Source: Acidobacteriota bacterium
GTDB lineage: Bacteria > Acidobacteriota > Holophagae > Holophagales > Holophagaceae
Length of the DNA: 64,000 bases
Direction of reading: 5' to 3'
Assembly (NCBI GenBank): GCA_016192145.1
Contig: JACPUT010000006.1
Location: forward strand, 434,001-498,000
A model generated the notes under the pieces. The model worked only from the letters and a program-made list of their open reading frames with translations. It had not been told where the DNA came from and did no database searches. This document shows, one piece after another, positions 4,482 through 50,210 of the stretch; position 1 is the stretch's first letter, and each line of letters begins with the position of its first letter. The position numbers and the translations under genes are program-made.

Positions 4482-4797
4482 AGGAACGCAGAGGGCCCTT
4501 CGGGCCTACGCGGAGGGTCGCTGCGCGACCACGCGGAGGACGCAGAGGGAGCGCGACCCACCGTTTGAGCCGTGCCCATGGCTTCGCCCATGCCATGGGC
4601 ACGGCCTGCGGCCGGACCCCGGCGCTGCGCGCCCCTGGGCCGCTCGCGGCCCAGGATCCAGGTCGGGACCCATGCGGCCCCTCGAAGGGCCGCCGGGGTC
4701 CCGACCTGGATGGGGTCCGATCGCATGAATGGGTCGGCGGGCCTCCGCGTCCTCTGCGTTGGCCCGAAGGGCCCTCTGTGTGCTCTGTGTCCCTTCT
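4482..4797. repeat. Word-hairpin array, ACGCAGAGG type, with nested palindromes
   Basis: The interval between the kinase and the aminotransferase has no gene. The left arm (4482-4553) carries words such as ACGCAGAGG and ACGCGGAGG. The right arm (4740-4797) carries their reverse complements (CCTCCGCGT, CCTCTGCGT, CTCTGTGT). Short palindromes interrupt the words, for example GGGCCCTTCGGGCC on the left and GGCCCGAAGGGCC on the right. The centre holds further inverted repeats, including ATCCAGGTCGGGACCC paired with GGGTCCCGACCTGGAT and a GTGCCCATGG...CCATGGGCAC stem. The same words recur at 36916-37030. It is not a tandem array with spacers, so it is not CRISPR. Confidence 0.85.
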
Positions 4798-36915: not shown

Positions 36916-37030
36916 GAAAAGAGAAACGCAGAGGCGCGGAGGCGCAGAGGCGCAGAGAAGAACCCAAACTCTCCCCCGCTTTTCTCTGCGCCTCTGCGCC
37001 TCCGCGCCTCTGCGTCATGCTTTTTTCCTC
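36916..37030. repeat. Word-hairpin array, ACGCAGAGG type, inside the hydroxyproline cluster
   Basis: Left words (AACGCAGAGGCGCGGAGGCG...) lie at 36916-36960 and right words (CTCTGCGCCTCTGCGCCTCC...) at 36978-37021, around a 17-nt A/C-rich centre. Flanks are A-rich on the left (GGAAAAGAGAAA) and T-rich on the right (GCTTTTTTC). It lies between the epimerase stop and the DAO-subunit start. The words match those at 4.5 kb. Confidence 0.87.
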
Positions 37031-37995: not shown

Positions 37996-38179
37996 GGGGC
38001 CTCCTGGGGGAGTCATCCAGGATCGGGGTTTGGATGGGGGTGGGTCTTGGTTGATTCCTTGCGGTGGGCATGGGGAACGAAACAAGGGGCTGAATTGGAA
38101 CGGTTTCTTTGGGGGGACGATTTGACGGGGTTTGTTTCGAACGGGTGGGGAGAGTTCGTCAGAATGGGGCCTGTTTAAT

Positions 38180-38205
38180 AACAGGATGAACAGGATGGAC
38201 AGGAT
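38180..38205 (+). repeat. Left word array of the GxxExxY element
   Basis: Three copies of a CAGGATGAA-like word (ACAGGATGAACAGGATGGAC...) start just before and run into the GxxExxY reading frame. Each word holds AGG and ATG, so it offers both a weak ribosome-binding site and start codons. The complementary words follow the gene. Confidence 0.85.
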
Positions 38206-38596
38206 TCAAGGCCGGACCGAACTGGACGGAACCGCCCAATGCGAGGAGCTCACCGGAGCGATCCTGGGTGTTGCCTTTGACGTGTTGAATGAGCTGGGGG
38301 CCGGGTTCCTGGAAAGCGTCTACGAGGGTGCGCTGGTCGTTGCCTTGAACCAGAAGGGCATTTCCGTCGAGCGGCAAGTCGCCATGAAGGTGCGATTCCG
38401 CGATGTCGTGGTGGGCCATTTCGTGGCTGATCTTTGGGTGGAAGGCAAGGTCATCGTTGAACTGAAAGCCGTCAGTCGCCTCACCTCCGAACACAAAGCC
38501 CAAACCATCAATTACCTCAAGGCGACAGGTACAGATCTCGGCCTCCTCCTCAATTTCGGCAATCCCAAACTCGAATACCACCGCCTCCACCGGTGA
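38186..38596 (+). CDS. GxxExxY protein (PD-(D/E)XK nuclease-like)
   Basis: About 136 residues. It has the family motif G-F-L-E-S-V-Y in ELGAGFLESVYEGAL, and a PD-(D/E)XK-like pattern: Asp in VGHFVADLWVEGK and E-x-K in VIVELKAV. The C-terminus TINYLKATGTDLGLLLNFGN is also typical. Family function is not known; a nuclease role is inferred from the fold. Start ATGs at 38186 and 38195 both lie inside the word repeat. The gene separates the hydroxyproline epimerase from the AraC-type regulator and is flanked on both sides by inverted word arrays, suggesting it is cargo or engine of that element. Confidence 0.88.
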   Translation: MNRMDRIQGRTELDGTAQCEELTGAILGVAFDVLNELGAGFLESVYEGALVVALNQKGISVERQVAMKVRFRDVVVGHFVADLWVEGKVIVELKAVSRLTSEHKAQTINYLKATGTDLGLLLNFGNPKLEYHRLHR

Positions 38597-38600
38597 CCCT

Positions 38601-38745
38601 TCCTTTCATCCTGTTCATCCGCTTTTCATCCTGTGAATCCTGTTTCAACCCCTCTGAGGCTTGAGCGGTCCATCCGGAATCCCTTCTGATCTCCAATCCA
38701 CCTTTTCACCTTGTTCATCGGATTTCATCCTGGCGATCCTGTTCC
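38601..38745. repeat. Right word arrays of the GxxExxY element (two blocks)
   Basis: Block 1 (38601-38648) has TTTCATCCTGTTCATCCGC and TTTTCATCCTGTGAATCCTG. Block 2 (38704-38745) has TTCACCTTGTTCATCGGATT and TTCATCCTGGCGATCCTG. These are reverse complements of the words before the gene. A 55-nt stretch without words lies between. Block 2 ends two bases before the AraC regulator start codon. Confidence 0.83.
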
Positions 38746-38746
38746 C

Positions 38747-42580: not shown

Positions 42581-42704
42581 ACGGGGAAGGGGCGGCCCGC
42601 TCCACCCGGAGGGCCCGCGGGGTACCGACCGGGGCAGGGGTGGGGGCGCGGGAAATACAACATGGGGGTTGCGCACAGATGGCCCAAAACTTACATTTTG
42701 CGCC

Positions 42705-43478
42705 ATGCTCGCACCCCTCCCCCCCCAGGTCCAGGCTTGCCTGGCCGCCATTGATCAGGCCGATACAGCTGGCCTCCAGGCCTGCTTCACGCCCCAGGCC
42801 CGGTTCTACGGCACTTGGATCAGTACGGAAATCCAAGGATTGGAATACATCCAATGGGCCGTCCGGGCCGCGTTGGAGGCGCTTCCGGGGCTCCGGGTGG
42901 TGCCCGTGGAAACCCATGGGGACGAGGTGGAGTTGGGCATCACGGCCCGGATGACCCTTGGGGATGGCCGCACCACCGAGGGCCTCTGGGTCTTCCAGCT
43001 GGATCCAGCGGGGCGGATCGACCGCCTGGCCGTTCTCTGGGATCCCGCCACCCTGCTGCCCGGGCATGCCAGCACGCCCACCCTCCCTTCGGCCCTGCCG
43101 GAGTCCGTGCGGGGCCCCCTGGAGGCGGCCCTGAAGGCGTTCAACGAGGGGGACGAGGACAAGCTCGTGGCCCTGCTCAGCACGGACGGCCGCTACCGGG
43201 GCACCCTCGGCAAGGTGGAGATCCGAGGGCGGGCCGCGGCCCGGGGGGTCTTCCGGGGGGTGCGATACGCCACGGGGCTGGATCGGGTGCTGGCCGGCCG
43301 GGTGCTGGGCCGCATGCCCGAAGTGGCCTTCAAAGTGAGCATGGGCATCTCGTTCACGGGGGCGTCCACCGAAGGCTGGTGGGTGCTTCGCTTCACCGAA
43401 GACGGGTTCATCCAACGGATGGCCGTGCTGTGGAATCCGATGCAGCTCCTGAGCCGGCGGCGAGCCCCGGTTTCCTAA
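42705..43478 (+). CDS. Tandem SnoaL-like (NTF2-fold) protein
   Basis: A 257-residue cytoplasmic protein made of two NTF2-fold halves. The first half starts PPQVQACLAAIDQADTAGLQ with TTEGLWVFQLDPAGRIDRLA at its end; the second starts LEAALKAFNEGDEDKLVALL and ends TEGWWVLRFTEDGFIQRMAV. Both halves end with an A-V-L-W motif, showing an internal duplication. No clear catalytic residues. It starts at ATG 42705; the 3' end overlaps the convergent kinase gene by 4 bp. Confidence 0.75.
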   Translation: MLAPLPPQVQACLAAIDQADTAGLQACFTPQARFYGTWISTEIQGLEYIQWAVRAALEALPGLRVVPVETHGDEVELGITARMTLGDGRTTEGLWVFQLDPAGRIDRLAVLWDPATLLPGHASTPTLPSALPESVRGPLEAALKAFNEGDEDKLVALLSTDGRYRGTLGKVEIRGRAAARGVFRGVRYATGLDRVLAGRVLGRMPEVAFKVSMGISFTGASTEGWWVLRFTEDGFIQRMAVLWNPMQLLSRRRAPVS

Positions 43479-50120: not shown

Positions 50121-50203
50121 GGATCGCGAATAGGGCGAATGGCCGCGAATGAAATAAATCCATTCGCGGCCATTCGCTCTTTTATTCGCGCTATTCGCGA
50201 TCC
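50121..50203. repeat. Word-hairpin array, GCGAATGG type
   Basis: Left words GGATCGCGAATAGGGCGAAT and GGCCGCGAATG (50121-50151) face CATTCGCGGCCATTCGC (50161-50177) and ATTCGCGCTATTCGCGATCC (50184-50203), around a 9-nt A/T-rich loop. The right arm carries an extra TCTTTT insertion. The outer stem is perfect. It lies between the convergent Lrp-type and DEAD-box genes and is a likely bidirectional terminator as well as a member of the word-hairpin set. Confidence 0.87.
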
Positions 50204-50210
50204 TCAGTTC

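Follow-up and report, generated by a model that had tools for sequence, protein, structure and literature searches.

What does a gene for a predicted nuclease do in the loop of a hairpin whose arms are made of short repeated words, and is such a gene the source of the hairpins or only something that they carry? The locus that raises this question lies in a stretch of 64,000 nucleotides that we analysed as a whole (the window). A first-pass annotation, made from the letters of the window alone, had described here a GxxExxY gene with CAGGAT words before it and inverted copies of them after it, and this description was borne out (Table 1). The two arms share a perfect inverted match of 14 nt, separated by 409 nt, and they pair with each other in the minimum-energy folds of the whole element, both as RNA and as DNA; these folds place the gene in a hairpin loop, as had been proposed. 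The window contains six copies of the word CAGGATGAA where 0.48 would be expected (none of 100 shuffles reaches six); four of these copies belong to the GxxExxY element and two to unrelated sequence. The gene is flanked by an epimerase and a PAS/AraC gene, with no cas1 or cas2 beside it. The Rfam search returned only an irrelevant match (E 0.24) outside the element, and a known RNA family was rejected for want of a relevant match.

The closest ATGs in frame, at 38186 and at 38195, both fall within the left words. The second is the likelier start; judging from the spacing of the letters, the AGGA of word 1 stands 8 nt upstream of the ATG in word 2. There is also an in-frame TTG upstream of the left words, at 38132, which is a poor start candidate. 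The suggestion that the word supplies the translation start thus holds in the window; it fails as a rule of the family, the nearest start being located in a word at 26 of 96 loci with clear arms.

Table 1. Word-bearing features of the window, with positions counted from its first letter
Feature	Position	Strand	Description
Left words AACAGGATGAACAGGATGGACAGGATTCA	38180-38208	+	Three words ACAGGATGA-ACAGGATGG-ACAGGATTC, period 9, CAGGAT class
GxxExxY gene	38186/38195-38596	+	136 aa from 38186, 133 aa from 38195
Right words TTTCATCCTGTTCATCCGCTTTTCATCCTGTGAATCCTGTTT	38604-38645	-	Inverted TTTCATCCTG-TTCATCC-...-TTTCATCCTG-TGAATCCTG; pairs with left arm across gene
Second right array	38704-38742	-	Degenerate, inverted; reaches start codon of next gene (PAS/AraC, ATG 38747)
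Whole element, approximate extent	38170-38746	.	From comparison of the epimerase-AraC gap
Gene-free hairpin, CGCAGAG class	36926-37016	.	Four-word arms around a 22-nt loop; some 1.2 kb from element
Gene-free hairpin, CGCGAAT class	50121-50204	.	
Gene-free word array pair	4489-4779	.	CGCAGAG/CGCGGAG words, GGCCCTTCGGGCC palindrome embedded

The window ORF is matched by TIGR04256 (E 9.5e-41; 138.8 bits against a cut-off of 35), which covers positions 1-115 of 116, and by PF13366, PDDEXK_3 (E 9.5e-40; 136 bits against a cut-off of 22). Residues E43, D82, E92xK94 and Q106xxxY110 are invariant across 32 aligned sequences, and since every one of them is present in the window protein, the PD-(D/E)XK pattern can be called intact, as the first-pass annotation had it. 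When the predicted structure (pLDDT 92.2) was used in a fold search, the best solved structures were the Cas4 protein SSO0001 and lambda exonuclease, followed by LHK-Exo, MGME1 and AddAB, whereas a sequence-profile search of solved structures gave no convincing relative. On its modelled fold and its motifs the GxxExxY protein is a PD-(D/E)XK nuclease of the QxxxY (Cas4/RecB/lambda-exonuclease) branch, with predicted activity; the combination of ExK and QxxxY is characteristic of nucleases whose substrates are DNA ends and single strands. No cysteine is invariant in the 32-sequence alignment, and therefore the protein has no Cas4-type cluster. Neither PADLOC nor PHROG yielded a match, none of 50,697 phage records contained GxxExxY, and only eight of 72,556 plasmids did. 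A role as an anti-phage defence gene was rejected, given the lack of PADLOC and PHROG matches and of any phage association.

Inverted words and the proteins that predict them

Enrichment of inverted words in the flanks of GxxExxY genes had been set beforehand as a test of the proposal, and it was found. For each gene, the 300 bases upstream were aligned with the reverse complement of the 300 bases downstream, and a score of at least 19 was taken as a pass. We took 35 GxxExxY genes from the family of the host and 80 from a wide range of phyla, one of the sources being a Methanosarcinales archaeon; 63 loci of the second sample were complete. As a control, windows with this geometry were shifted along each of these loci; an earlier cross-locus control was inflated by words that the loci have in common. 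Across phyla, 48 of the 63 complete loci scored at least 19, as against none of 252 shifted windows, and in the host family 33 of 35 genes did so, as against one of 120. When 12 whole genomes behind these loci were considered, 23 of the 30 copies examined passed, and single genomes carried several words. Each of the five GxxExxY genes in the host genome itself is accompanied by inverted word arrays, and the words differ, namely CAGGATGAA, CGCGAATGA (two genes), GCGGAGGAA and CAGTGATGA, the last forming a hairpin beside the gene rather than around it. The placement of a GxxExxY gene inside inverted words is a general arrangement across bacteria and an archaeon.

Copies may also be clustered: in Marinilabilia salmonicolor five GxxExxY genes lie within 13 kb on one strand (G081 contig C4 19523-32632).

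Nearly all words conform to CRCNRAK (for example CACAGAT, CGCAGAT, CACGGAG, CACGAAT and CGCCAAG) or to CAGGAT. An arm usually has three words of 6-7 nt with a period of 8-10, and AACC often precedes the first of them. Polarity is fixed, the words reading forward in the 5' arm at 71 gene-bearing loci versus 6, and at a ratio of 34:0 in the lexicon hairpins of sampled genomes. One may consider that such arms are produced by chance or by base composition in GC-rich, low-complexity sequence, as short repeats can indeed arise by chance in GC-rich genomes. This is already refuted by the shifted windows, none of which reached the pass score across phyla, and by a reversed lexicon: in 77 genomes of the family there are 1484 matches to the three-word pattern, against nine when the pattern is reversed. 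Moreover, identical words occur in very different hosts, and we consider the probability of an artefact negligible.

Protein sequence predicts word class across phyla. The three word classes require 5 changes on a tree of 113 proteins, compared with 29.8 when shuffled, and 3 changes (the minimum being 2) on a tree of 78 cross-phylum proteins, compared with 18.0. Prediction, which concerns gene-bearing elements, was correct for 18 of 20 later loci when the class was taken from the nearest labelled protein (below 90% identity), including all 12 that were previously unseen, and in a leave-one-out analysis with neighbours below 70% identity it was correct for 74 of 80 (chance 44%). Host composition is not the cause of this link, since one genome holds several word classes. 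That the protein clade predicts the word class is the strongest reason for thinking that the protein recognises its word. The C-terminal third of the protein (alignment A1) differs between clades: CRCNRAG proteins read NFNVPxxKDGIxR and TYLKLT, and at the corresponding places CRCNRAT proteins read NFGxPxLxxKR and NYLKAT. These clade-differing segments are, as far as an alignment can tell, candidates for the part that confers word specificity.

Gene-free hairpins and a second word family

Gene-free hairpins of the same lexicon far outnumber the genes. In 464 kb of the host genome there are 21 lexicon hairpins, only two of which contain a gene, and another detector gave a similar picture. The number of arrays rises with the GxxExxY copy number (rho 0.52, P 2e-6, with G065 excluded and phylogeny uncorrected), and genomes at least 90% complete that have no GxxExxY gene contain 0-3 arrays against a median of 17; an exception is the draft zero-copy genome G049, which has 26. 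The earlier idea that arrays without a gene are non-autonomous copies is in keeping with their lexicon, with their presence in the same genomes and with the scaling of their number with GxxExxY copies.

The spacers of some arrays hold small palindromes, for example GGCCCTTCGGGCC and GGTCGCTGCGCGACC, both in the window (4489-4779) and in genome G000 (C7 335466-335780). To judge by the letters, these palindromes are seemingly elements nested in, or attached to, the words.

The broader claim that GxxExxY proteins lie behind the whole family of word hairpins needs to be narrowed. It may hold for gene-free arrays of the same lexicon, which scale with the gene copies; it does not extend to a second, parallel word-hairpin family of period about 7, occupied by four-helix-bundle (TIGR02436) genes. 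These genes also lie within inverted tandem words, drawn from a separate lexicon (GCTATCA, AGTCTTC, GGCTGGA and TTGGTCC at loci L184-L213, e.g. L192, L195 and L209), and in a flank test, the control of which was inflated by common words, a score of about 18 or higher was reached at 14-15 of 21 loci. They recall the S23p gene in the loop of an rRNA intervening sequence (PMC4990558), and the shared layout of the two families suggests that a gene in a hairpin loop is a recurring design.

In one genome, G065 (L129, L131 and L132-L157), a whole GxxExxY word element travels as the passenger of an IS5-type insertion sequence, next to the transposase of the latter. This insertion sequence is found in dozens of nearly identical copies, most of which share one set of internal deletions in the passenger gene. 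Fifty matches in G065 that might have been counted as non-autonomous copies were rejected as such: they represent the IS5-type element with a decayed GxxExxY unit, and give no evidence of self-mobility.

Such a passenger, together with the great excess of gene-free hairpins over genes and the presence of four-helix-bundle genes in similar hairpins of another lexicon, is what one would expect if GxxExxY were in general a cargo, or a host gene lying between repeats that other machinery spreads. This explanation is nevertheless improbable, because word class is predicted by protein sequence across phyla and because arrays become so few in nearly complete genomes that have no gene. From the word code and the correlation with copy number we infer that the GxxExxY protein is the engine of the element rather than its cargo.

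Occupied and empty sites

The epimerase and AraC genes on either side of the window element are syntenic neighbours in three relatives as well, with DNA identity of 74-84% on both sides, and there the gap measures 124-182 nt, compared with 766 in the window. The gene-free hairpin closest to the element (Table 1) is absent from the same three relatives, and the second, degenerate right array is missing in orthologues. Between rpoB and rpoC the element is found in two species and is absent from three, the flanks being up to 97% identical, and between ftsA and ftsZ it is found in four species and absent from two (the names of these flanking genes are those which we take the translated ends to indicate). 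Gene-free hairpins, likewise, are present in some relatives and absent from others. At the empty epimerase-AraC, rpoB-rpoC and ftsA-ftsZ sites words and gene are lacking together, not independently of each other. Gene and words are one unit that is gained or lost as a whole, the empty sites being compatible with gain as well as with loss. The ends of the element fall roughly at the base of the stem, and no target-site duplication was seen at the rpoB-rpoC, ftsA-ftsZ or gene-free hairpin junctions. A search of the genus with the DNA flanking the window element found one other genome only, which is incomplete and does not contain the site.

Six species carry the gene at a thiolase-HADH site, with either CGCAGAT or CACAGAT as the word. 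In the five of them that could be aligned free of gaps, 7 of 28 stem pairs have changed on both sides and none on one side only, the rest being invariant or mismatched; either selection on pairing or copying of one arm from the other would have this effect. Comparison of L028, L037 and L038 with L032 and L036 shows CGCAGAT exchanged for CACAGAT throughout both arms, i.e. a concerted change of the word in place.

At three orthologous sites, some species have a gene-bearing element where others have a hairpin that lacks the gene and has words of another class: L002/L042 (purH-alaS) versus G013/G037/G022, L030 (before pyrG) versus C7 183884 of the own genome, and L046 versus G035 (148855). These cases reflect either recurrent use of a site or replacement of words in place. 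Since word classes differ at some shared sites, simple decay from a gene-bearing to a gene-free state is insufficient to explain every case. A different situation is seen at the L026 site, where G035 has a solo CACGGAT array (42679-42849) and another species has a full gene-bearing element of the same class; here the solo array is likely a relic of the full element.

These sites bear on homing, a close rival of the explanation that we prefer, although we consider it somewhat less likely than not. The nuclease would cut gene-free hairpins, which would then be converted through repair on a template that has the gene and arms that match; hairpins would serve as target and as homology arms at once, and the words would stay uniform through repeated conversion. 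Homing accounts for the gene in the loop, for the matching arms and for the uniformity of words within an element, as well as for the concerted change at the thiolase-HADH site, for the fact that L019 (rpoB-rpoC) resembles the ftsA-ftsZ copies and not L022, which occupies the same site as L019, and for sites where one species has the gene and another has a gene-free hairpin. Yet the words differ at all three orthologous sites of this last kind, and the existence of empty sites without any hairpin means that another route of insertion is still needed.

Elements lodge in short intra-operon gaps of essential genes, just past the stop codon and ahead of the next ribosome site, as in L019/L022 (rpoB-rpoC), L018/L020/L029/L034 (ftsA-ftsZ) and L002/L042 (purH-alaS). 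As a general explanation, a terminator role was rejected, because the hairpins appear to sit between co-directional essential genes.

Alternatively, the elements might act at the RNA level, the stem protecting or processing the operon mRNA, and the protein binding or cutting the RNA stem and thereby controlling its own expression or that of its neighbours, while mobility is slow and driven by the host. The tight gaps within operons (rpoB-rpoC, ftsA-ftsZ and thiolase-HADH), the folding of the element from end to end as RNA, the covariation of its stem pairs and the analogy with S23p intervening sequences, which are RNA hairpins processed by RNase III (PMC4990558), would all be in agreement with this. 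However, the nearest solved folds are those of nucleases acting on DNA ends or single-stranded DNA, gene-free copies scale with gene copies, and covariation cannot separate stems of DNA from stems of RNA; on balance, a role of this kind seems unlikely.

A possible mechanism and known systems

The window locus is probably one copy of a widespread selfish element, borne by a hairpin, with a Cas4-like nuclease that reads its own word and with gene-free satellites. In such an element a nuclease gene of about 130 aa occupies the loop of a long imperfect palindrome, the words being spaced by 8-10 nt, or about one helical turn. The palindrome would extrude as a stem-loop when the DNA is single-stranded, on the lagging strand or in a transcription bubble, and the nuclease, which might sit as an oligomer on words one turn apart, would read the word cognate to it, much as Cas4 does with a PAM, and cut at or near the base of the stem. 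The freed hairpin, or a copy templated on it, would then be joined into another gap, typically a short intergenic one, while gene-free hairpins would be satellites that the nuclease moves or rewrites in trans. Insertion within an operon is probably tolerated thanks to the stem that forms in the mRNA, as in rRNA intervening sequences processed by RNase III. The chemistry of cutting and insertion is inferred, and we know of no strand-joining enzyme in the element.

More broadly, the GxxExxY elements may constitute an unrecognised class of mobile DNA, present in bacteria and at least one archaeal lineage, in which a Cas4-like nuclease reads CRCNRAK or CAGGAT through a code written in the protein and seeds many satellites per genome, with a parallel class that has four-helix-bundle proteins and words of period 7; for this wider proposal we see the case as evenly balanced. 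In the openly searchable literature (5.39 million open papers) we found no description of GxxExxY word elements and no mention of TIGR04256 or of six typical word strings, while GxxExxY is named in two papers and PF13366 in one. Provided that the subscription literature agrees, the elements are so far undescribed. GxxExxY is a common family of "function unknown", and the source of short intergenic palindrome families in many phyla has been unexplained; the two are now tied together. The rule that leads from protein to word is predictive and supplies a testable pair of enzyme and substrate, and it becomes understandable why nuclease genes are lodged between rpoB and rpoC or between ftsA and ftsZ.

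Several known systems resemble these elements in part. Cas4 reads a short sequence (the PAM) and cuts single-stranded overhangs. Cas4 proteins (SSO0001 and Pcal_0546) are the best structural matches and share the ExK and QxxxY motifs, but the GxxExxY proteins have only about 130 aa, no invariant cysteines and a low sequence identity (14-21%), and the window gene has no cas1/cas2 neighbours. A CRISPR Cas4 was rejected, as both the four-cysteine Fe-S set and the cas1/cas2 neighbourhood are missing. Like MITEs and elements derived from IS200-IS605, the gene-free hairpins would be short non-autonomous palindromes that need an enzyme in trans; unlike in those groups, there is no DDE or HUH transposase and no target duplication was seen. 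An insertion sequence, or a MITE dependent on a DDE transposase, was rejected for the same reasons, i.e. an element without a transposase and with no target-site duplication seen.

The intervening sequences of 23S rRNA that carry S23p are about 400 nt long, have a terminal inverted stem of about 28 bp and an ORF in the loop, and have been called selfish (PMC4990558). They are similar in size, in stem, in the ORF of the loop and in being tolerated within an essential transcript. S23p, however, forms a four-helix bundle that shows no nuclease motifs, and the intervening sequences are located in rRNA, whereas GxxExxY elements lie between protein genes and have tandem words; with a different fold and an intergenic site, membership in the S23p group was rejected.

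A functional parallel is REPIN/RAYT (PMC3116915), in which gene-free palindromic hairpins also occupy chromosomal intergenic regions in many copies and are linked to a DNA-processing enzyme, with several flavours per genome, each having its own enzyme. Among GxxExxY elements dispersed gene-free hairpins are likewise many, and their number tracks the gene copies; the match of word class to protein is seen in the gene-bearing elements. There the enzyme is a Y1 HUH protein, here it is a Cas4-like PD-(D/E)XK protein; the GxxExxY gene, in addition, lies inside the hairpin loop, the arms have three words and a genome contains several copies of the gene. Membership in REPIN/RAYT was rejected, since the defining HUH enzyme is missing and the gene belongs to PDDEXK_3. 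The GxxExxY elements work like REPIN/RAYT but are unrelated to it, and they would add a REPIN-like selfish system that is based on a different class of enzyme.
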